Assembly (NCBI RefSeq): GCF_040807025.1
Contig: NC_090945.1
Span: 38,867,088-38,931,087 of the forward strand
DNA: 64,000 bases
Reading direction: 5' to 3'
DNA from: Struthio camelus
Lineage: Eukaryota; Chordata; Aves; Struthioniformes; Struthionidae
Position numbers and translations under genes: made by a program. Positions 4,901-52,323 of this stretch are shown here, piece after piece (position 1 is the stretch's first letter; each line of letters begins with the position of its first letter). The notes under the pieces were generated by a model that saw only the letters and a list, made by a program, of their open reading frames with translations, was not told where the DNA came from and did not search any database.

Positions 4901-7900
4901 TGAGAGCAAACATGGGAATAAGAGTGTGGTGTCCTCCGGGTAACGGGGAGAATTGTAAAGCAGACCAGAAAACCGGGAGCTTGTCTGTACAGGGAGAAAC
5001 AGGTAGGTCATCTTAATTTTGTTAAACTGGGGAAGAAATGTAAAATGTTTTTTTGGCAGTAGAACTGACTTCCTTTCTTGAGTGATTTTTGCTCGTCTGC
5101 CCCGCACAGTCTGACACAAGACAGCAGTATTGGCTGAGGATACCTGGGCGAGGGACTGGTGTTTGCGTGTGTGTTCAAATTAGAGCTGATGTTAGCTGAA
5201 GCAGCTGAATTGCTAAGGCCAATTCTCAGGTCATTTGAAAAAGCGCCGCTAGCGTGGGTACCTGCTGCCTGTTTTTCTGTCAGGGTTTTAGCTGGCTATT
5301 TTCCCTAGCTTTTGGGAAGAGGAGGACTGAAGAAGGTATAAATATTTACAGGGTTGTCCTCTGTCTCCCTGATGAGATGATAAGGAGAAATCTGTCTTTA
5401 GAAGAATTGTCTTCAGAAGTTCCTACAGCCAGGACATGTTTCCTGTTTAAAATAGTATCTATATAGTTCAAAGAGCAACATGTGCTTTCTGATTCATACT
5501 GTTACCTGTAACTGCATTGTACCCTGACTTGTATTCATTGTACAGGGGATGTCATTTAGGTCATGAGCCCCTCGTGGTAGGGGCTGGCATGTGTTTCTTG
5601 ATAAGACTATCAATATATGTTGTTTTCCGTCCTGTTATCAGAAAATTTAGAAAATGCATGTAAATTCATGTTTCAGATGACTTCTCATTGAATTTGCAGT
5701 TGAAAGACCTTCTTAATTATTTTGGGTTTCTTTTTCCAACTTTTGTAGAAAGCTTTTATCAACGATCCAAAAAGAAGTGTTTGGAGAAATTTTGTTCCGA
5801 TTCAAGCTCAGACTGTGGGAGTTCATCGGGAAGCGTTCGTGCCAGTCGCGGGAGCTGGGGTAGCTGGAGTAGTACCAGCAGTTCTGACGGAGATAAAAAG
5901 CCCATGGTTACTGCTAGGCATTTTCTTCCATCCAGTAAGTTGTGCAAATACCATCGTTGCACCAGAGCGGGCAGAGTTTCGGCCTTCCTTTTGGATAGTA
6001 AAGGGATATTGGGCTTCTTAGTGGCAAGGAACGTGTAACTTGCCTTGTAAGGGAGAGAACACCTCAGAATTGAGAGGAGAGTTTAAAAGAAGTGTAAGTA
6101 CTTGAAGCAAAGTACTGGAAGTTTTGTGGCAATGAAAATGAGTTATCAGGCTCCAGGGAAGCTGTCAGACTCTGCACTGAGGAGGCTGCACTCAATTAGT
6201 TTTTATAGAAAGATGGAGGAACTAAGAGTTACTAGTCAAAGCAATTGCTGCCTTTGAATTAATGTTACATCACGTGATTCTCATGAAAATGCAATCTTTT
6301 TGTTGTAGCTATTTTAGAAAGTGCACAAATGAGGAATGTGTGAAAGCAGCTCAAAAATACCTGAGAACGCTCAGCTGGGATAGTTGTATTTGAGGTATAA
6401 GTAGTCAGGATCCCTAAGGTGCTTAATTAGTATGAAAAGTCACAACTGTGGTTCATTACTGTATCTTTCTGAATGCCTGAATATCATGAAAATAGTTGAA
6501 ACCCTAAGACTCTATCACTGCCAGACTCTTCTCAGATTGATGTAACGCTAGAAGTAGATTTAGAGGAAGTGCTGGAGTGAAACAAGAAAAAGCATCTTTG
6601 AGTACCTGAAGGAAACCGTTTTGAATGATTTAAAATTTTGTGTGTGTGTGTGTGTGTATAGATATATATGTGTGGGGAGTATATATATTTACACACACAT
6701 ATGTATGTATAAAACCCTGCAACTTTATATTTTGAAAAGATACTGTGATATATCTGAACCTGTAATCTAATGGGTTATGAATCATATGCAGGTGAATGTT
6801 CTGTTTGTTCAGATTATAATCCCTCTAAAGGAAAAGAAAAAAGTAATTTCAAATTCATAATGAATTTGATAGTAAAAAGGAATCTCCATTAAGATTAAGA
6901 CTGTAATAATACTTATAAAATACACTTAAGACCATGTGGAAATAGATTCTTCTAAGTCTGAGGCTACATGTTCTTTTAGTTAGAATAGTGATTCTAAAAC
7001 GTGGTGTAATTTTATAAGCTCCACCTTCCCCTTCAGCTAGTCATAAACAAAAGACTATATAGAGAAGGAGCTATACATGAAAACTGTGTAATTGTGGTTA
7101 GTAAGCAAACCTATTAACATGTTAGAATTAATGAAGTTATTGATACTCCAGTCTGAGAGAGGACTTGATTTATACCAGTCACGAGTCTATTTGTGTGTAT
7201 ATGTGTTCTGTGCATACTTCTTTTTTTTAGGATCTTTGATTTTCACAGTCATTCTTTTCTTTAGGAGAGAATATTTCACAAAATGATTTTCCATCTGAAA
7301 CTCCTATCACTTTAAATCTGTCTCATAACATCTGCAATACCAGGTAAAAAAATTTGAATCTATACCTGTAAGACATTAAAGAAACTCCACCAACTTGAAA
7401 TCTTGGCTCATTTTGATAAATTATACCTACCTGTTGTCTTGTTCTTTTTTTTTTTTTTTTTGGGGGGGGGGGGGGGGAAGTGTCATCTAATCCTCTTTTC
7501 CTAACTTGAAAAAGAAAAGTCTTTCTCAATATGTGAAAAGATCTATGCAAGTGAGACAGAAAATGGATTATGCTTGGGAAATATGATAAATGTTTCTAAA
7601 TGTAAAATAAAATTGGAAAAAAGGGAAATAAATTTTTTCTCTGATTTCTTCTAAATCTAGCAATTTATAACATTTCCTTATCACTTAGGTATATTAAAGC
7701 AATTATTATTTTAAAAAAAAGTGGAAATGAGACTTTCAAGTTGATGTTATTCTTTTAATGAGAAAAATGTTCTATTAGGATATACAGCATGAAAATTGAT
7801 TTCCCCTTCCTCATGTTCTTTTCTACCTCTTTCCTGTAATACAGTTAGCATCTGAAATTTTTATTACTGTGAATCCTCATTTCACCTCTCATTCCTGACT

Positions 7901-36619: not shown

Positions 36620-38986
36620 ATGTTAAAATCAACAATCATGCTTACCTGGCGAGCGTGGGCCATCTACATGGTTCTATCGGTAAACCTCTCTGAAGAGCAA
36701 GCTCTGAAGCAAGTTTGTCCTTCATGCGATGCCACTCAGTTTTGCAACTGTTCTTCCAGGGGTTTGGACTTCATTCCCTCAGGGCTCACGGGTGAAATCA
36801 GGGGCTTAAACCTGGCCCACAACAGGATAAAGCACATTCGAGCACGCGATCTGCAGCAGGCTGTGAACCTGAGAGTCCTGCTACTGCCATCAAATGAAAT
36901 CAGCTCAATAGAGGAGGATTCGTTTCGTTCCCTTGCAAAACTGGAGCTCTTGGACTTATCAAATAACAGCTTGGCTCACTTGTCCCCTGCGTGGTTTGGG
37001 CACCTTTTTTCACTGCAGCAGCTCAACATTCAAGGAAACACCTACAGCGACCTGGGGGAAAGTTCCCTCTTTTCTACCCTGAGCAACTTGAGCTCTCTCT
37101 ACCTGGGCAATCCGCAGTTCTCCACGATAAGGCAAGGAAACTTTGAGGGCATTACGCTTCTTGATGAGTTGTGGATTGACGGCAGCAATCTCAGTCAGTA
37201 TGAGCCAGGAAGTCTGAAATCAGTTAGGAAGATACATCACATGATCATCAGCCTAAAAAGGGTGGACGTATTCTCAGAGATTGTAGGGGATCTTCTGCAC
37301 TCCGTCGTATGGTTAGAAGTTAGAGAGATCAAATTAGAGATTGAGAAAAAAAGTTTAGCACAAAATTCTACACTTCCTTTAATGATGCAGAAAATTACAT
37401 TTAAAGATGTTATGTTCACAGACGAATATATTAGCCCAATAATGGTACTCTTGAAGGAAATAAAATCTTTGCAAGATATAGAGATAATAGATTGTGTACT
37501 TGACGGGACTGGAGTGTGGCGTACTGAAGAAACTGCAAGCAGTGGTCCAAGTTCTGTTGAAACAATATCAATTACAAATATAACAATTCAGAATTTTCAT
37601 TTGTTTTTAGACCTGAAAAGTGCAGAGTCACAAGTAAAGGACCTGAAAAGACTCAGAATTGCAAGTTCTAGAGTTTTCATGGTACCATGCAACCTTGCAA
37701 AGCATTTTTCATCACTCGTATATCTTGATCTTCATGATAATTTGCTTGTAAACAATCGCTTAACTGAGACAACCTGTGAAGGTGGTTGGCCTTTATTGCA
37801 GACTTTAAATCTAAGTCAAAATTCTCTAAAATCTCTAAAACAGACTGCAAAAAATTTAAGTCATCTATCCAAGCTCATTAATCTTGATATCAGTCAAAAT
37901 AATTTTGGTGAGATTCCAGACACGTGTCAATGGCCAGAAAATCTGAAACATTTAAATCTGTCCAGCACTCAAATTCCTAAATTAACAACCTGCATTCCTC
38001 TGACCCTTGAAGTTTTGGATGTCAGCGCTAATAACCTGAAGGAGTTTGGGCTGCAACTCCCTTTCCTCAAAGAGCTGTACGTTGCGAAAAACCAGCTGAA
38101 GACCTTGCCTGATGCTGCACCCATTCCTAACTTGGTGGCCATGACAATCAGGAGAAACAAACTCAACAGCTTCTCCAAGGCAGAGTTTGAGTCCTTTAGG
38201 AAGATGGAGGTGCTGGATGCCAGTGACAATAACTTTATCTGCTCCTGTGAATTCCTCTCCTTCATTCATCACGAGGCTGGAATAGCCCAAATCTTAGCGG
38301 GGTGGCCGGAAAACTACATCTGTGACTCTCCCCTGACAGTGAGAGGGGAGCAGGTCGGAGCTGTACATCTCTCACTGATGGAGTGCCACAGATCCCTCGT
38401 TGTGTCGTTAATCTGTGCGCTGGTGTTCCTGGTCATTCTCGTCCTTGTGGTTGTCGGGTACAAGTATCACGCGATCTGGTACATGAGAATGACCTGGGCA
38501 TGGCTTCGAGCCAAGCGGAAGCCCAAGCAAGGTCCCCCAAAGGATATTTGCTATGATGCTTTTGTCTCCTACAGTGAGAATGACTCTGACTGGGTGGAAA
38601 ACATCATGGTGCAGGAGCTGGAGCAGGCCTGTCCTCCCTTTCGACTGTGCCTCCATAAGCGGGACTTTGTGCCTGGGAAGTGGATTGTGGATAACATCAT
38701 TGACTCCATAGAGAAAAGCCACAAAACGCTGTTTGTGCTGTCGGAGCACTTTGTGCAGAGCGAGTGGTGCAAATACGAGCTGGACTTCTCGCACTTCCGC
38801 CTCTTTGATGAGAACAACGATGCGGCGATTCTCATCCTCCTGGAGCCCATTCAGAGCAAAGCGATTCCCAAAAGGTTCTGCAAACTGCGGAAGATAATGA
38901 ACACAAAGACCTACCTGGAGTGGCCTCCTGGAGAGGAACAGCAGCAGATATTTTGGGAAAACCTGAAAGCAGCCTTAAAATCATAG
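36620..38986 (+). CDS. TLR2A: Toll-like receptor 2, upstream copy (TLR2A / TLR2 type 1)
   Basis: A single-exon 788-residue receptor for bacterial lipoproteins that pairs with TLR1-family receptors and signals through MyD88. In order: an N-terminal signal segment (about 1-27), a Cys-rich cap (CPSCDATQFCNCSSRG), about 19 leucine-rich repeats (LDLSNNSL, LNLSQNSL, LNLSSTQI), an LRRCT (about 539-590, CSCEFLSF), a transmembrane helix (about 592-614) and a TIR domain (about 643-785). TIR box 1 is YDAFVSY; the BB loop is RDFVPGKW with the key Pro at 685; box 3 FW lies near the end. Length matches vertebrate TLR2 (human 784). Splice acceptor tttcctacag ends at 36615, five bases before the start ATG, so 5' UTR exons lie upstream. 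A second in-frame ATG (codon 7, 36638) would shorten the signal segment. Residues 235-422 differ sharply from the second copy; the rest is almost identical. Confidence 0.97.
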   Translation: MLKSTIMLTWRAWAIYMVLSVNLSEEQALKQVCPSCDATQFCNCSSRGLDFIPSGLTGEIRGLNLAHNRIKHIRARDLQQAVNLRVLLLPSNEISSIEEDSFRSLAKLELLDLSNNSLAHLSPAWFGHLFSLQQLNIQGNTYSDLGESSLFSTLSNLSSLYLGNPQFSTIRQGNFEGITLLDELWIDGSNLSQYEPGSLKSVRKIHHMIISLKRVDVFSEIVGDLLHSVVWLEVREIKLEIEKKSLAQNSTLPLMMQKITFKDVMFTDEYISPIMVLLKEIKSLQDIEIIDCVLDGTGVWRTEETASSGPSSVETISITNITIQNFHLFLDLKSAESQVKDLKRLRIASSRVFMVPCNLAKHFSSLVYLDLHDNLLVNNRLTETTCEGGWPLLQTLNLSQNSLKSLKQTAKNLSHLSKLINLDISQNNFGEIPDTCQWPENLKHLNLSSTQIPKLTTCIPLTLEVLDVSANNLKEFGLQLPFLKELYVAKNQLKTLPDAAPIPNLVAMTIRRNKLNSFSKAEFESFRKMEVLDASDNNFICSCEFLSFIHHEAGIAQILAGWPENYICDSPLTVRGEQVGAVHLSLMECHRSLVVSLICALVFLVILVLVVVGYKYHAIWYMRMTWAWLRAKRKPKQGPPKDICYDAFVSYSENDSDWVENIMVQELEQACPPFRLCLHKRDFVPGKWIVDNIIDSIEKSHKTLFVLSEHFVQSEWCKYELDFSHFRLFDENNDAAILILLEPIQSKAIPKRFCKLRKIMNTKTYLEWPPGEEQQQIFWENLKAALKS
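36643..37320 (+). repeat. Near-identical 5' paralogous tract, copy in TLR2A
   Basis: 678 bp pairs without gaps to 44852-45529 (offset 8209). I see one difference: C37155 against T45364, giving Thr179 in copy one and Met175 in copy two. Similarity stops abruptly on both sides. Confidence 0.93.
37886..38927 (+). repeat. Near-identical 3' paralogous tract, copy in TLR2A
   Basis: 1042 bp pairs without gaps to 46092-47133 (offset 8206). It covers the last leucine-rich repeats, LRRCT, transmembrane helix and nearly all of TIR. I find three differences (CAC/CAT His, CGG/AGG Arg, AGC/AGT Ser), all silent. Confidence 0.93.
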
Positions 38987-39332
38987 AACAAGTCAGTAAT
39001 CCCTGTTCCAGCATGTTTTCACAAAGGTTATGTCAAGATTTTTCCTGTTAAGAAATGTTTATTTTCTTTTTCTGCTTAATGAGGCCTGGCTTTGCTGTAT
39101 ATAGAAATAATTATCTTCATGCTGAATGAAAATGACCAACTGCAAGTTTTCCAGTGTTGTTGAGACTCTGGTCTTTCCAAATTCCGGGCAATAACTGTGA
39201 CATTGGTAAGACAACTGGACTTGAAACTTTTCTAAATACATTTATCTGAATTCAGTGTATTTCTGGAGTTATTTCTCCTGTTACCACATCTCCAAACAGT
39301 TCCTATCAATGCCGTTCTTTTTTACAATGGAA

Positions 39333-39338
39333 AATAAA
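39333..39338 (+). promoter_or_regulatory. Polyadenylation signal of TLR2A
   Basis: AATAAA about 350 bases after the TLR2A stop; the first canonical hexamer I see in the 3' UTR. Confidence 0.65.
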
Positions 39339-40329
39339 AGCAAAGTACCTCAATTCTTCCCTGTGTTGTTCTCCTTTAGTTTATTTTCAGTGCCATCATA
39401 GATAGCAAGACAATTCAATTTCTGAAGAAAAACTGAGTCTTTTGATCAAAATAAGTCTTCTGAAGCCATACCATTGCTCTGCAACACAAAAAAGACAGTA
39501 CTAAATATGTACCTCCACTCACAAGTCTGTTATTTTGTCTAGTTACTGGAATCCACAGCTTCACACAGGTTGGGCTTTATTCAGTAACTTGTGCAGGAAG
39601 CATCCTGGCACCTTGCGCGATGAGTGTGGTGAACTCTAGAGGTGTTGAATCACTATTTTTCTTTCTTAGGTTACTTTCTCCCTATGAAGGGTTGTTTCTC
39701 CCTTCAGGATCTCCACGTTCCCTTCTGTCTACCTACTGGGTATGGGGCAAGGATGTTTTTCTAACGAGTCGGCTAGATAGTATGGCAGACTGGCTTATTT
39801 CTTTCTGTTTCTGCATTTTTGCACAGCACATGTAATGATTGGGCCATGCATCTCTTACAGCTCTAAATACCTTGCATTTATAATCAACAGAGTATATAAA
39901 CCCTGATAAGGGACAATTCATCTTCCTACTTCAGTGTGAGATATCTCCTGGAAGTACTGTAATGCTCTCCGCTAATTATGAAGGGAATCTAGACAAGTAG
40001 GTAGATGTGGATGTTTATCTTTGGATAGCTGGTCTTATCCTGAGTGCCTGGAGTCAGAGCTGCCATGTGTTTCTCATGTTTTAGAGAGATACTTGTGGAA
40101 ACCTGAAATCTGTCTCTGAGAAGGGATAAAGTTTGTGGGTTCCTGTAACTCAGCATTCCCATACTTCACTCTTCTTGCATTGCTGGAGCTTATGTACAAA
40201 AGATTGTAAATGAACTGTAGTTAAACTTTATATATGTAATTATTTTGTGGTGAAATACCAAAGCATTGGCATATGGGCTGTTTCCAGGTGAATATTTGGA
40301 AAATTGGGAAATTGGCCTATACATGCGTG

Positions 40330-40446
40330 TCTGTGTGGGGGTATACATGTATATATTTAAATATGTAGTATATCTGTATATGTGTGTATATATATGTATA
40401 TATTCACACACACATATATATTTGTGTGTGTGTGTACACATATGCA
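40330..40446. repeat. TG/TA-rich low-complexity block between the TLR2 copies
   Basis: Alternating TATATG, CACACA and TGTGTG runs. It is palindromic in places and lies about 1.4 kb past the TLR2A stop. Confidence 0.88.
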
Positions 40447-42670
40447 TGAGATTATATTTTTGTGGGCGTAGCCTGCAAACTCCACTTTCAGTTCTTGGTT
40501 TTACTTTTGTGTTGTAATAACATCTCTTGTGTTATTCAAAAGTCTGCTATGAAAGGACTTTTTATTCACTCTCAGATAAGGATTGCTCAAGGGCTGATCA
40601 AGTCTGAACTCTAGGTAAGTGTTCAGTGAATTGACTGGTAGCAAACACTGAGCAGTTGATAAAACTAATTAGGAGGCTGACTGCCTAGAGGTAAGGAGGG
40701 AGAAGTTGTCTTGCTGGTCATTTTGAAGAGAGTGTCAGACAGAGGCAGGAGAAGCCTTGGCTTTTCTAGAGTACGCCCTTAGCAAAGACCTAGACTTTTA
40801 CGGGTTCACACGTTTAAAAAGACTGGTAGTCTTACTGATCTTGTGTGAATCAGATCTCCTAGGTGGGAATTTCCCTGCTTCGGTAGCCCAGGCTGAAACA
40901 TGAAGCAAAAGAGAAACAGTAATGAGAGAGGAAGCTGAGTAAAGAGTGACTGCCAAGAGAGAATTCAAGGGCGAAAAAGGCAAAAACCATCATGCTAACA
41001 CCAGAGCTTGAGCTGCAGTCCCAGGGAATCTTTTCTGCACAGAGGTGAGTTTGCAGGCAGGTGGAGGCTGGAGATGCAAGGAGAGAAAGAGGAGCTGCAG
41101 AGCCACAGCAAGCAGCGAGGAGGGAGCACTGGGAAGGGTCTATCTAATCTCTTCTCTGCCTTGGGTTTTCATGATGCTTGAGGCTGCTGGGCAGGGGTCC
41201 AGCTCTTGTAGGGAATGTGGGGGTGAGGAAGGCACTTTTAGGTCCTGGCAGCCATGGAGCTGGCAGGTGTGGTTGCAGCCGGCTGGCAGGCAGGCAGCAA
41301 AAGGCAGGTTCCGTGAGCGTGCTGGGACATACTGATGGGAGCAGTGTGCTCGAGGAAAGAGGGAGAGAGGAAAGCCACTGCCTTATGAATAAATGAAAAA
41401 GAGATGGCTTGGGACAGGCAGTGTCCCTTCTGCTCAGTTTCCGCTTGGCAGGGTGCCTTGTGGGTATTTTGCCCCATTTGTATATTGAGATTGTTACCAC
41501 GTGCCCAGGAAAGGCTGGGCTTGAATACAAGCTGTTTTTGTTTTAGGAATCCACCCAGGTAAGAGATCATTAGCAATGATCTCCGGGCACTGGGCTCAGA
41601 TGTATACTGCTAAAGCGATGCTGGTGGGTGATACCCAGGACGTATGTTACCCACGCACAACTAAGTAGAAAGTAATAGCTTTCCGAAGTCTACTTGGTGG
41701 CCTGATCCTTTCACCTCTCACGCTGCAGAATCCGTTTAACAGTTTAACATTGTTAAAGCTTAACAGCCCTCTTTTAGCTTGATACTGTTTCCCATCCGAG
41801 CATCAATTTGCACGTTACAGGAATGTTTTATTCTGGCTGTTACCGCTAGTTGTTATAGATCCTCTTCCTGATGACGCTTTTTTTTTTTTTTTTTAAGAAA
41901 ATGTACATATTCCCTCAAATACTCCTACTGACCTGTGCCAGGAAAGATAATCCTGAGCATGTCTGAAGGCTCAGGTGTTTTGTCCATAAACCAGAAACAA
42001 TTTGCAAGTTTAGTTCATCACAGTCCCTTATAAAACAAGGGCTGCTTTGCAAATTCCCTTTTTATATTAACTGCATTCCAATTTCTATTTGGAAATATTT
42101 TTTTTCCTAGTACAATGGGGAAAAGCAATTCCTTGGCAGGGCAATGATATTGCGGGGTGGGCCCGTAGTTGTGTGTGCAGGGGACTGAAAGGACTGTGTA
42201 ACTCAGAGCCTTAAGCTGCGTTATTAGACATAAATGGGAAGGGGAAGAGAACGGCTGAAAATGAATGAGAGTAGAAATAGGACTTCCCTGGGGCCCCCAT
42301 TACAGACAAGCAAAGAAAACTGGGGAAGATGCTCAGGTGAGTGACAATAAAGAAACACTTCCTTGTAACACCTAACTGGAATCTATCCTGTAGTCTAGCC
42401 CTGGCTGGTTTCAAGCTGGTAAGACAGAGAGTAGTTAGGCTCATCTGGTATCTCCAGTGTTGGACCTGGCCAGTTTCCTTCTGTTCTATCAGCTTTCCAT
42501 CTGTAAATAAACTACCTAAGGGTAGATTATTTACCTAGGCTGCCTAGCTGTTTCTTTTTCTAATAGTATTTTTATGGCAATTTGGACTTGCTCTTCATTT
42601 GAAAAATTCCACTTAAATTTGCTGCTTGCGAACCTGATCTTAATAATAGTTTTGCTCATATGACCTACAG

Positions 42671-42738
42671 CACCGTGTTATCCAGCCAACCTAGCATGAC
42701 CGAAGAAGGCCTGTAAAAGAGCCTCGGCTGGACAAAAG
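42671..42738 (+). other. Candidate TLR2B 5' untranslated exon
   Basis: Acceptor cctacag ends at 42670 and donor aaaag then gtgagt begins at 42739, framing 68 bases about 2.1 kb before the TLR2B coding exon. The case rests on splice signals and position only. Confidence 0.25.
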
Positions 42739-44840
42739 GTGAGTGTGACTACAGATTGTAATTCTTCGGGTGAGAATCACCTGGCTAAATATCTAGATAT
42801 CTGAAATATGGTGCTCCATTTTAAGCTGATGGTGTCATTTCTCTTGGAGTCATCACATCTTAAAATGGGTGTCTAAATCAGATGATGTGAATTGCCCCTA
42901 AAAGTTGTTATTTTTCTCCATTGACTTTAGAGGACATGGTGGGTAACCAGCTTAGCAGTGGGCATCTGAAGACAGGGGAGAGGAATCAAGATCCAGAGCT
43001 CTACATCAGAAGGAGACAGAGATTAAAGGAAAATAACACAAGAGGTCAAAATGGTATTAGTCTTTCAGATGGGAAGCGATGGAAAGATGGAAAAAATTAT
43101 CCACATCCTTTCTTCTTCTCCCCATGTGCCCCAGTAACAGCTAATTCTGCCACTTTTGAATAATTTAAAGCAACTCTGGTTAAGAATAGCACAGTTAGGA
43201 CAGGACTTGTCAGTTTGAACTTGTCTGCATGGGCCAGCTATTGTAAAACAAATCAGAGTATGAACTCACAGTAGTAGATCATCTTCACTGAGTTTCAGTG
43301 GGATGCCTGAAGGAGAAAGTGCTCTTCAGTGAGCCAGTCTAACCAAATTAACCAAATACAGAGCCCACAATGATCTTTGGGAATCTTTTTGTTGGCCTCT
43401 TTGGGGCTGGTTCACTCTTTTCACCTTCAGTGAAATACTTAACCTTCCCCAGCGTGTCATAAGATCAGTGGGAGGTATCTTGTGCTTTACAAGTCCTCTT
43501 TGATCCTTGCCAAGGAAGCTGTATATAAATGAGAAAGGGTTACAATTCGGTATGTCACAAGGTTTTGAAAGGAAAACAGTCCTCTCAGGCTTAAAGAATT
43601 GTTTTTCCAACTCCTCAGAGAGACAGTAGAACTAATGCCGCTTTGTTGTGAGGGAGGAAGGACTGGAAATTGTGGCAAGCTATGTAATACAGAAAGCCAT
43701 GTCAAATGAGAACAATGAAAGGCACAAATGTCTGCAGAAAGAGAAGTGTGACAGGATCTCTGTGTGGATCCACACTGGCTGTGTGGATGCTCTTGAATCA
43801 TTATAGTCCAGAAGAGGAGGAACAGACTGCAGGGCTGGAAGAAGGTGGTCCAGTCCAGCCTGCTGATCTGCAGGAGGCTCCAAGAGCCCCTGCCTCTCCC
43901 TCATGGCTGAGACTTGACCGTTCTCTGTCACAAGAGACCCAAAGCAGAGAAACCCTCTAGCAGAGGAGGAGGCTGTGGCAGTACAAGGGAAGAGCTAAGA
44001 GTTAGCAGGTAACAATGGTCAGTTTTCCTGGCTTGAGTTTCATTAGCAATATTGGACTGCCCTAGTCACTGCTCTCAGCTTGGTAATGATGGCCTAAACA
44101 GACATCCAGGCAAATATTTATCTTCTTGCTCCTTGCACATTTACGGAGAGAAAAGCCAAAGGCAGATAAACTGAGAAAACAGAGTGAAACATATGCAGTC
44201 TTTTCCTCCCTGTTGTCAGAGTTGAGAAGTAGAGGTAGGCTTGAAATAAATATTAAACGTGAAAGTTACTATTTCCTGCAAGACACTGACTGCTATTGCT
44301 GTGACCAGGATTTGCAGTGCATGCAGGAGACTCCCTATAGTAAAGAATGCATATACAAAATAAAACTTATAGATCAAGAGGAAAATGACCTAGGATGAGA
44401 GGGGAGTGTGCGTGGAGGGGGGATGTATGTATTTCCTGGGAGATGGCTATTTTCTAAACAGGCAAAGGACCAAATCAGTAATAGTGTTGTGATTACTCAG
44501 ATATTCAGCTCAGTCTGTGAAAGATTTGTGCACTTGGTAATTAATTTGATATTCCTCATTCCAAAATTAGAAACTTTATAGGAAAGAAAAAAAAGAGAAC
44601 TTAATATATTTTGTATATTTTGCACCTATCGAGTGCTCCTGGAATACCTCTGTACAATATGTCTTTTTTGACTACTCTGTTTCATCTCTGAACAGCTTTA
44701 AAAACAGGTATTTTCATAGTACCTTCAACAGGGCAGATTGCTAAGGATTTTGTTTTGGTTACATCCAAAATATAAGTTCTTCAAAACTATCTGTTCATCT
44801 TACACTTGCTCTGACTGTATTTCAAATTTTAGGCAAAATA

Positions 44841-47192
44841 ATGATGACACATACCTGGCGAGCGTGGGCCATCTACATGGTTCTATCGGTAAACCTCTCT
44901 GAAGAGCAAGCTCTGAAGCAAGTTTGTCCTTCATGCGATGCCACTCAGTTTTGCAACTGTTCTTCCAGGGGTTTGGACTTCATTCCCTCAGGGCTCACGG
45001 GTGAAATCAGGGGCTTAAACCTGGCCCACAACAGGATAAAGCACATTCGAGCACGCGATCTGCAGCAGGCTGTGAACCTGAGAGTCCTGCTACTGCCATC
45101 AAATGAAATCAGCTCAATAGAGGAGGATTCGTTTCGTTCCCTTGCAAAACTGGAGCTCTTGGACTTATCAAATAACAGCTTGGCTCACTTGTCCCCTGCG
45201 TGGTTTGGGCACCTTTTTTCACTGCAGCAGCTCAACATTCAAGGAAACACCTACAGCGACCTGGGGGAAAGTTCCCTCTTTTCTACCCTGAGCAACTTGA
45301 GCTCTCTCTACCTGGGCAATCCGCAGTTCTCCACGATAAGGCAAGGAAACTTTGAGGGCATTATGCTTCTTGATGAGTTGTGGATTGACGGCAGCAATCT
45401 CAGTCAGTATGAGCCAGGAAGTCTGAAATCAGTTAGGAAGATACATCACATGATCATCAGCCTAAAAAGGGTGGACGTATTCTCAGAGATTGTAGGGGAT
45501 CTTCTGCACTCCGTCGTATGGTTAGAAGTGAGAAAAATAGCATTCAGTATTCCTGATGAAATGCAACTATTGAGACTCATGTCTTTTTCTTTTGCAAAGA
45601 AAATTTCTTTTAAACAGGTTTTGTTTACAGATGCTACCGTGCCTGAGATGATCAGCATTGTAGAGGACATGACAAAATTAACAGAGGTGGAGATGAAAGA
45701 CTGTAGACTCTTGGGAACCGGTCATTGGGGTATACAAATTCAAGCAAACCAATCACGTTCTCTTCGAGTTGTAACAATAGAGAAATTATCTATAGAAGAA
45801 TTTTATTTGTTTTCAGATCTTAAGGCTGTTGTAGATCTAATATCTCCTCTTACTAAAATTACAGTTGAAGATACCAAGGTCTTTTTGGTACCATGCAGAC
45901 TTTCACAGCATCTTTCGTCATTAGAGTATCTTGACCTCAGTGCGAATTTGCTTGGAGATCAGGGTTTGGAGCATTCAGCCTGTCAGGGTGGCTGGCCCTT
46001 ACTGCAAACTCTAAATCTAAGTCAAAATTCACTGAGTGACTTAAAAATGACCGGTAAAAGCTTATCTCACCTGAGAAACCTAATTCTCTTAGATATCAGT
46101 CAAAATAATTTTGGTGAGATTCCAGACACGTGTCAATGGCCAGAAAATCTGAAACATTTAAATCTGTCCAGCACTCAAATTCCTAAATTAACAACCTGCA
46201 TTCCTCTGACCCTTGAAGTTTTGGATGTCAGCGCTAATAACCTGAAGGAGTTTGGGCTGCAACTCCCTTTCCTCAAAGAGCTGTACGTTGCGAAAAACCA
46301 GCTGAAGACCTTGCCTGATGCTGCACCCATTCCTAACTTGGTGGCCATGACAATCAGGAGAAACAAACTCAACAGCTTCTCCAAGGCAGAGTTTGAGTCC
46401 TTTAGGAAGATGGAGGTGCTGGATGCCAGTGACAATAACTTTATCTGCTCCTGTGAATTCCTCTCCTTCATTCATCACGAGGCTGGAATAGCCCAAATCT
46501 TAGCGGGGTGGCCGGAAAACTACATCTGTGACTCTCCCCTGACAGTGAGAGGGGAGCAGGTCGGAGCTGTACATCTCTCACTGATGGAGTGCCACAGATC
46601 CCTCGTTGTGTCGTTAATCTGTGCGCTGGTGTTCCTGGTCATTCTCGTCCTTGTGGTTGTCGGGTACAAGTATCATGCGATCTGGTACATGAGAATGACC
46701 TGGGCATGGCTTCGAGCCAAGAGGAAGCCCAAGCAAGGTCCCCCAAAGGATATTTGCTATGATGCTTTTGTCTCCTACAGTGAGAATGACTCTGACTGGG
46801 TGGAAAACATCATGGTGCAGGAGCTGGAGCAGGCCTGTCCTCCCTTTCGACTGTGCCTCCATAAGCGGGACTTTGTGCCTGGGAAGTGGATTGTGGATAA
46901 CATCATTGACTCCATAGAGAAAAGCCACAAAACGCTGTTTGTGCTGTCGGAGCACTTTGTGCAGAGTGAGTGGTGCAAATACGAGCTGGACTTCTCGCAC
47001 TTCCGCCTCTTTGATGAGAACAACGATGCGGCGATTCTCATCCTCCTGGAGCCCATTCAGAGCAAAGCGATTCCCAAAAGGTTCTGCAAACTGCGGAAGA
47101 TAATGAACACAAAGACCTACCTGGAGTGGCCTCTTGAGGAACAGCAGCAGCAGATATTTTGGTTTAATTTAAAATTAGCTCTAAAATCCTAG
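44841..47192 (+). CDS. TLR2B: Toll-like receptor 2, downstream copy (TLR2B / TLR2 type 2)
   Basis: A single-exon, 783-residue tandem paralogue about 8.2 kb downstream in the same orientation. It has the same architecture: signal segment, Cys cap, leucine-rich repeats, LRRCT, transmembrane helix (about 587-609) and TIR with Pro 680 in the BB loop. The start MMTHTWRAWA is four residues shorter than copy one, and the end LEEQQQQIFWFNLKLALKS is its own. Acceptor caaattttag ends at 44832. Residues about 231-417 diverge from copy one; in places they look closer to mammalian TLR2 (EDTKVFLVPCRLSQHLSSLE). The Phe matching human F349 at the pocket rim is kept here (348) and in copy one (353). There is no lesion. 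Both copies are presumed expressed; birds are known to carry two TLR2 genes with partly different partner and ligand use. Confidence 0.97.
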   Translation: MMTHTWRAWAIYMVLSVNLSEEQALKQVCPSCDATQFCNCSSRGLDFIPSGLTGEIRGLNLAHNRIKHIRARDLQQAVNLRVLLLPSNEISSIEEDSFRSLAKLELLDLSNNSLAHLSPAWFGHLFSLQQLNIQGNTYSDLGESSLFSTLSNLSSLYLGNPQFSTIRQGNFEGIMLLDELWIDGSNLSQYEPGSLKSVRKIHHMIISLKRVDVFSEIVGDLLHSVVWLEVRKIAFSIPDEMQLLRLMSFSFAKKISFKQVLFTDATVPEMISIVEDMTKLTEVEMKDCRLLGTGHWGIQIQANQSRSLRVVTIEKLSIEEFYLFSDLKAVVDLISPLTKITVEDTKVFLVPCRLSQHLSSLEYLDLSANLLGDQGLEHSACQGGWPLLQTLNLSQNSLSDLKMTGKSLSHLRNLILLDISQNNFGEIPDTCQWPENLKHLNLSSTQIPKLTTCIPLTLEVLDVSANNLKEFGLQLPFLKELYVAKNQLKTLPDAAPIPNLVAMTIRRNKLNSFSKAEFESFRKMEVLDASDNNFICSCEFLSFIHHEAGIAQILAGWPENYICDSPLTVRGEQVGAVHLSLMECHRSLVVSLICALVFLVILVLVVVGYKYHAIWYMRMTWAWLRAKRKPKQGPPKDICYDAFVSYSENDSDWVENIMVQELEQACPPFRLCLHKRDFVPGKWIVDNIIDSIEKSHKTLFVLSEHFVQSEWCKYELDFSHFRLFDENNDAAILILLEPIQSKAIPKRFCKLRKIMNTKTYLEWPLEEQQQQIFWFNLKLALKS
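44852..45529 (+). repeat. Near-identical 5' paralogous tract, copy in TLR2B
   Basis: Partner of 36643-37320. The upstream flank (promoter side, acceptor, start codon) shows no similarity to the upstream flank of the other gene. Confidence 0.93.
46092..47133 (+). repeat. Near-identical 3' paralogous tract, copy in TLR2B
   Basis: Partner of 37886-38927. Identity ends inside the codons before box 3; after that the two C-termini and 3' UTRs differ. Confidence 0.93.

Positions 47193-51236: not shown

Positions 51237-52323
<1,087 letters not shown>

Follow-up and report, generated by a model that had tools for sequence, protein, structure and literature searches.

Conversion between neighbouring TLR genes has been described in birds and in mammals. 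Closest to the case presented here are the avian TLR2A/TLR2B pairs of Huang et al. 2011 (PMC3125219). Table 1 of that work sets out an N-terminal, central and C-terminal layout in four birds, with GENECONV p-values for TLR2A/B down to 1e-40; in alignment columns the converted tracts span 63–713 and 1291–2375 in chicken, 47–713 and 1329–2385 in turkey, 34–725 and 1285–2371 in duck, and 42–718 and 1285–2328 in zebra finch. In trees of the four species the centre follows the expectation of the species tree and the ends group by species. The unconverted part lies between LRR8 and LRR15, with LRR9–12 as the ligand-binding repeats. In a penguin TLR study such tracts are taken to be established for birds in general, with reference to Velova et al. 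2018, and a tit study finds conversion between TLR1LA and TLR1LB.

A related arrangement is found in mammalian TLR1/TLR6 (Kruithof et al. 2007, PMC2077338): the C-terminal half is converted up to a conserved inner border and the last part of the TIR domain is unconverted, the reason for the conservation of the borders being left open in print. Also from mammals comes an accepted sign of conversion, namely a third-position GC content (GC3) that is higher in the converted than in the unconverted parts of the same gene (PMC2720389).

Here we analyze the TLR2 pair of the ostrich in a single Struthio camelus assembly (1.45 Gb). The window, by which we mean the whole stretch of DNA analyzed, comprises 64,000 nt (NC_090945.1:38,867,088–38,931,087); coordinates count from its first base unless another gene or contig is named, and all TLR2 features lie on the + strand. 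Given the published avian tracts and trees, the ostrich mosaic is a further instance of known avian conversion: it has the three-part layout of avian TLR2A/TLR2B, with homogenized ends and an old centre (PMC3125219). In segment length the nearest of the published pairs is that of zebra finch, with 677/566/1044 columns (centre at 719–1284) against 678/565–562/1042 bp in ostrich. Four differences are found within the ostrich tracts, as compared to 14 in zebra finch, 22 in duck, 7 in turkey and 2 in chicken. The likeness to mammalian TLR1/TLR6 extends to the converted C-terminal half, the inner border and the unconverted end of the TIR domain; however, the mammalian case involves another gene pair and one tract rather than two. 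The original prediction had put forward the tract limits as the novelty of this species: the exact borders do hold in ostrich, but both the layout and the borders were already in print. What the present analysis adds to the published layout is a step in GC3.

Mosaic structure of the TLR2 pair

Two uninterrupted reading frames, each with Pfam LRR_8 and TIR matches, encode proteins with an LRR ectodomain, a transmembrane segment and a TIR domain: TLR2A (36620..38986, 788 aa) and TLR2B (44841..47192, 783 aa). They lie in tandem, 8.2 kb apart. Among solved structures the best match of TLR2A is TLR2 (E = 7.5e-152, covering residues 33–592 plus the TIR domain), and TLR2B pairs with TLR2A across the whole frame at 85% identity (tblastn). 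Ectodomain and TIR domain are closest to TLR2, of the TLR1 subfamily; the labels A and B are carried over from the original prediction and do not denote orthology to named bird genes. Elsewhere in the window, two short frames at 51943..52287 (−) and 5688..6038 (+) gave no Pfam match; we take them to resemble exons of RNF175 and TMEM131L, genes that commonly flank TLR2.

Aligned to each other, the copies fall into sharply delimited segments. The N-terminal tract (36643..37320 in A, 44852..45529 in B) extends over 678 bp with a sole difference, at 37155 in A and 45364 in B (ACG/ATG, T/M). The C-terminal tract (37886..38927 in A, 46092..47133 in B), which runs from the last LRRs to the TIR domain, extends over 1042 bp with three differences, all silent (38470, 38516 and 38761 in coordinates of copy A). 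Between the tracts lie the centres, 565 bp in A (37321..37885, GC3 0.26) and 562 bp in B (45530..46091, GC3 0.32), which are unlike from the first base to the last: nucleotide identity is 56% (247 differences at 564 aligned sites) and amino-acid identity 41% (78 of 188 aligned codons). Outside the tracts the frames diverge as well: the A frame is unlike B over its initial 23 bp, and the final 59 bp (38928..38986 in A, 47134..47192 in B) carry 17 differences.

The lengths and difference counts of both tracts, and the abrupt borders at 37320/37321 and 37885/37886, had been predicted in advance and are reproduced to the base by the alignment. Two further points call for amendment. The centre does diverge throughout its 565/562 bp, but about half of its residues had been said to be identical, where the codon alignment gives 41%; and the near-identity claimed for the ends of the frame holds for the tracts but not for the outermost 23 bp (A) and 59 bp.

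Each centre retains its own match to TLR2: that of copy A corresponds to positions 223–391 of the TLR2 structure 2z7x_A (E = 1.5e-36), that of copy B to positions 225–390 of the TLR2 structure 2z81_A (E = 8.8e-39). Since both are TLR2 at the same place of the fold, neither is foreign.

Origin of the identical ends

Chance similarity as the cause of the identical tracts is ruled out by shuffling: of the 2349 aligned columns, 584 form the longest identical run, and when the 274 differences were shuffled 10,000 times no run exceeded 112. Among the 637 codons for the same amino acid (M and W excluded), up to 217 identical codons follow one another, as against 147 at most in the shuffles. By a simple Nei–Gojobori count the N-terminal tract has 0 silent differences at 158 silent sites (dS 0) and the C-terminal tract 3 at 232 (dS 0.013), with no replacement difference in the latter; dS in the centre is 1.30 and dN 0.54 (188 codons). 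Silent sites are close to saturation in the centre, and silent divergence is close to zero in the ends. Where both copies encode the same residue, they use the same codon in 224 of 224 cases in the N-terminal tract, 344 of 347 in the C-terminal tract and 41 of 78 in the centre: a surplus of silent identity in the tracts beyond what protein constraint provides. These results match the 99% and 56% reported for avian TLR2 (PMC3125219). The ends include the conserved TIR domain, and strong purifying selection could be thought to have kept them alike without any conversion; the silent sites, however, are identical too, which refutes constraint at the protein level alone, and we attach practically no credence to purifying selection as the explanation.

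The surroundings of the two genes are of a different character. When 10 kb surrounding A was compared with 9 kb surrounding B by sensitive blastn, one strong match was returned (36643–38986 vs 44852–47192); the other eight matches measure 14–34 bp, with E-values of 0.076–0.92, and no clear similarity between A and B was detected in this comparison outside the reading frames. Flanks without clear similarity point to an old duplication with recently homogenized ends. Alike ends around an unlike centre would equally result if a plain recent duplication had been followed by replacement of one centre from a third gene. Yet recent duplication leaves alike flanks, unless it is a retrocopy, and here the flanks lack clear similarity and the outermost parts of the frames diverge. 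Nor was a donor found: there was no third TLR2-like copy among 7 DNA matches or the 11 examined of 23 TIR matches in this genome (the scan scores the best candidates only). Moreover, the two centres match TLR2 about equally and are alike in being GC3-poor, and A and B are old paralogues in the published trees of the centre from four birds (PMC3125219). In the window, tblastn with the four TLR1/2 proteins returned no further TLR fragments, and scans of bacterial genome contigs, viral contigs and phages found no relatives. Duplication with replacement of a centre is, in our estimation, exceedingly unlikely.

Together the unlike flanks, the contrast at silent sites, the absence of a third copy among the matches examined and the GC3 step (see below) support gene conversion: as judged from the sequence, TLR2A and TLR2B are very probably an old tandem pair, the ends of which have recently been homogenized by interlocus gene conversion. 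This is the process to which the original prediction had attributed the ends, on the grounds that a plain recent duplication would not suffice – a view upheld by the dissimilar flanks and the diverged extremities of the frame – and it had rightly taken conversion between avian TLR2 copies to be known, as it is from the four birds of Huang et al. 2011 (PMC3125219), whose segment trees have the outcome that the prediction had named as support for conversion.

Each of the four differences within the tracts pairs a CG of copy A with another dinucleotide in copy B, TG at three of them and AG at the fourth. CpG sites mutate fastest, and the differences therefore look like the first mutations to have arisen since the last conversion. 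The CpG is destroyed in copy B at all four positions (37155, 38470, 38516 and 38761) and in copy A at none, which could be chance.

The same differences bear on the quality of the assembly. Within the tracts short reads cannot be assigned to one copy, and the ends of one gene might have been assembled or polished with reads that belong to the other; in the penguin TLR study, TLR1/2 paralogues were missing or inseparable with short reads owing to their near-identical converted regions. The window, however, contains no N, and the contigs of this assembly are chromosome-long (at least 225 Mb for the largest). All four differences coincide with CpGs of copy A and three are CG to TG, which is a spectrum of mutation and not of assembly error. 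GC3 steps at the tract borders, present in both TLR2 copies and in a TLR1 pair, are not made by an assembler, and in duck and turkey the layout was cloned and sequenced (PMC3125219). We regard an assembly or polishing artefact as very improbable.

Under gene conversion, repeated non-reciprocal copying, probably in the germ line and by way of mismatch-repaired heteroduplex DNA, would have homogenized both ends of TLR2A and TLR2B, the latest event being so recent that only four mutations would have arisen since. The outer borders would fall where the copies cease to be alike in coding sequence, and the inner borders where the copies are too diverged to pair, over the LRRs of the lipopeptide pocket and dimer face. 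That the ostrich centre holds this pocket and dimer face is suggested by the LRR placement of Huang et al. (PMC3125219). Selection to keep two different sensing parts may contribute to the sparing of the centre, and mismatch repair favouring G and C could, over the long term, have raised GC3 nowhere but in the converted parts. The two receptors would then probably share their signalling half and differ in the part that binds the ligand; it is by conversion with a spared centre, it seems, that birds maintain two TLR2 genes that signal alike and sense with two distinct parts.

GC3 footprint and the inner borders

In the TLR2 genes GC3 is 0.587 in the N-terminal tract (both copies) and 0.634/0.628 in the C-terminal tract, but 0.261/0.324 in the centre (A/B; tracts vs centre, Fisher p = 1.9e-17 in A and 8.5e-12 in B). 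At fourfold sites the GC counts for tracts vs centre are 150/236 vs 11/70 in A and 148/234 vs 20/78 in B. GC in the 1 kb flanks of the two copies is 0.38–0.40.

The TLR1 pair of the same genome is an independent replicate of this pattern. It consists of a short gene of 653 aa (L008:6711-8672) and a long gene of 802 aa (L009:7499-9907), located on the same contig, with 1167 bp in common that show no difference; the N parts and the last stretch are unlike. Avian TLR1A/TLR1B likewise combine an unlike N part with an identical C part, with one difference in the tract of zebra finch (PMC3125219). The ostrich tract also has a GC3 step: GC3 is 285/389 (0.73) in the tract and 90/254 (0.35) and 160/406 (0.39) in the unconverted N parts.

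The best single GC3 step reaches a 2dlnL of 97–100 in the TLR1 genes and 33–46 in the TLR2 genes. Control genes L036, L037, L038, L039 and L040 (a partial frame), which we take to be TLR15, TLR5, TLR4, TLR7 and TLR3, gave values of 15.2, 9.3, 6.2, 14.1 and 4.5. Modest rises in GC3 toward the 3′-end are seen in L036 (0.31 to 0.42) and L039 (0.40 to 0.49), so the rise in the C-terminal tract of TLR2 need not come wholly from conversion. Two genes on small, GC-rich contigs are GC-rich throughout (GC3 0.87–0.94 in L011, 0.97 in L012). Their best steps (24.9 in L012, confined to the last 22 codons, where GC3 goes from 0.98 to 0.68; 13.8 in L011) show that a step in GC3 does not by itself mark a gene as converted, but these steps differ in size, place and direction from those of TLR1 and TLR2. 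Position within the gene is no explanation on its own, since the converted parts are both ends in TLR2 and the 3′-end only in TLR1.

With GC3 raised in the converted relative to the unconverted parts and a step near the tract border, the pattern fits long-running GC-biased conversion. GC3 is raised in converted parts of BMP8A/B, DDX19A/B and TUBG1/2 as it is in ostrich TLR2 (PMC2720389), although those are mammalian pairs of other genes and the effect is significant in two of the three. No report of a GC3 step in bird TLR1/2 was found in the literature searched, which lay mostly outside subscription journals: the terms 'GC content', 'GC3' and 'biased gene conversion' do not occur in the text of Huang et al. 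2011 (PMC3125219), nor do the GC terms sought in that of Kruithof et al. 2007 (PMC2077338).

The steps do not everywhere coincide with the borders of identity. Given with two-unit support ranges, the 5′ inner change point of GC3 is at 37309 (37282–37351) in TLR2A and 45518 (45485–45539) in TLR2B, for identity borders at 37320 and 45529; the 3′ inner change point is at 37990 (37984–38038) in TLR2A and 46223 (46190–46247) in TLR2B, for identity borders at 37885 and 46091. In TLR1 the change point is at 699 (693–735) in the short gene, with the identity border at 762, and at 1191 (1185–1206) in the long gene, with the identity border at 1218. Relative to the identity border, the GC step is thus displaced by 105–131 bp to the inside at the TLR2 3′ inner border and by 27–64 bp to the outside in TLR1. 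Along the inner edge of the C-terminal tract (37886..37990) the copies are identical, but GC3 is still centre-like: in copy A it is 10/35 codons vs 210/312 in the remaining tract (p = 1.2e-5), and the first 33 informative codons of the tract have a GC3 of 0.24, reached in none of 2000 shuffles. Because A and B are identical here, the two do not count as separate evidence. Most simply, this edge would be a late addition to the tract, although a local quirk of composition is possible. The offset hints at a recent shift of the 3′ inner border; in both TLR2 and TLR1, the failure of step and border to coincide counts against a clean conversion reading.

One reading would account for all of these offsets jointly: GC3 would be the long-term record of conversion and the identity border that of the latest event. 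The TLR2 3′ inner border would then recently have crept ∼105–131 bp into the centre, the TLR2 5′ inner border would have stayed, and the TLR1 border would have drawn back by 27–64 bp. As a whole we find this rather doubtful. If true, the conserved borders of bird TLRs would be a moving balance between loss of homology and conversion, not fixed sites, and the ligand-binding centre would slowly be eaten from its 3′ side. The GC step is a further measure of where a border lies, one that does not depend on recent identity and can be read in any bird genome; with it one could ask whether function holds the borders in place or whether they shift as sequences diverge.

It is also possible that what chiefly determines the inner borders is selection against the mixing of ligand-binding repeats and not a barrier of divergence: a question of why the centre is spared, not of whether conversion occurs. 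In its favour, the centre spans LRR8 to LRR15 and includes the ligand-binding LRR9–12, border positions are alike in several birds (PMC3125219, Table 1), and they are conserved in mammalian TLR1/6, with 'no clear explanation' according to Kruithof et al. (PMC2077338). However, at 56% nucleotide identity the centre is far too diverged for easy pairing, and its present sparing therefore calls for no selection. With a dN/dS of ∼0.42 the centre is under constraint on average, a value that does not in itself show selection for divergence. The GC3 offset, moreover, suggests a shift of the 3′ inner border by ∼100 bp, in which case it is not pinned to one residue. We take borders set mainly by selection to be a real possibility, without leaning towards it.

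Other receptor genes in GC-rich sequence

Two receptor genes on small contigs deserve mention. The first (L012:2449-5295, on the 443 kb contig G000:C39) has a GC3 of 0.97 and is presumably a TLR21-like receptor gene. The second (L011:2638-5220, at about 3108637–3111219 of the 5.3 Mb contig G000:C30) is an LRR–TIR receptor gene with a GC3 of ∼0.9. For the ten usual bird TLRs we follow the list in the penguin TLR study. The nearest solved relatives of L011 are TLR2, and a small tree places it with the TLR1/2 genes (92/92 with TLR1, on long branches). Since the ten usual TLRs seem, by our own assignment, to be accounted for by other TIR matches in this genome, L011 may be an eleventh bird TLR, located in GC-rich sequence.
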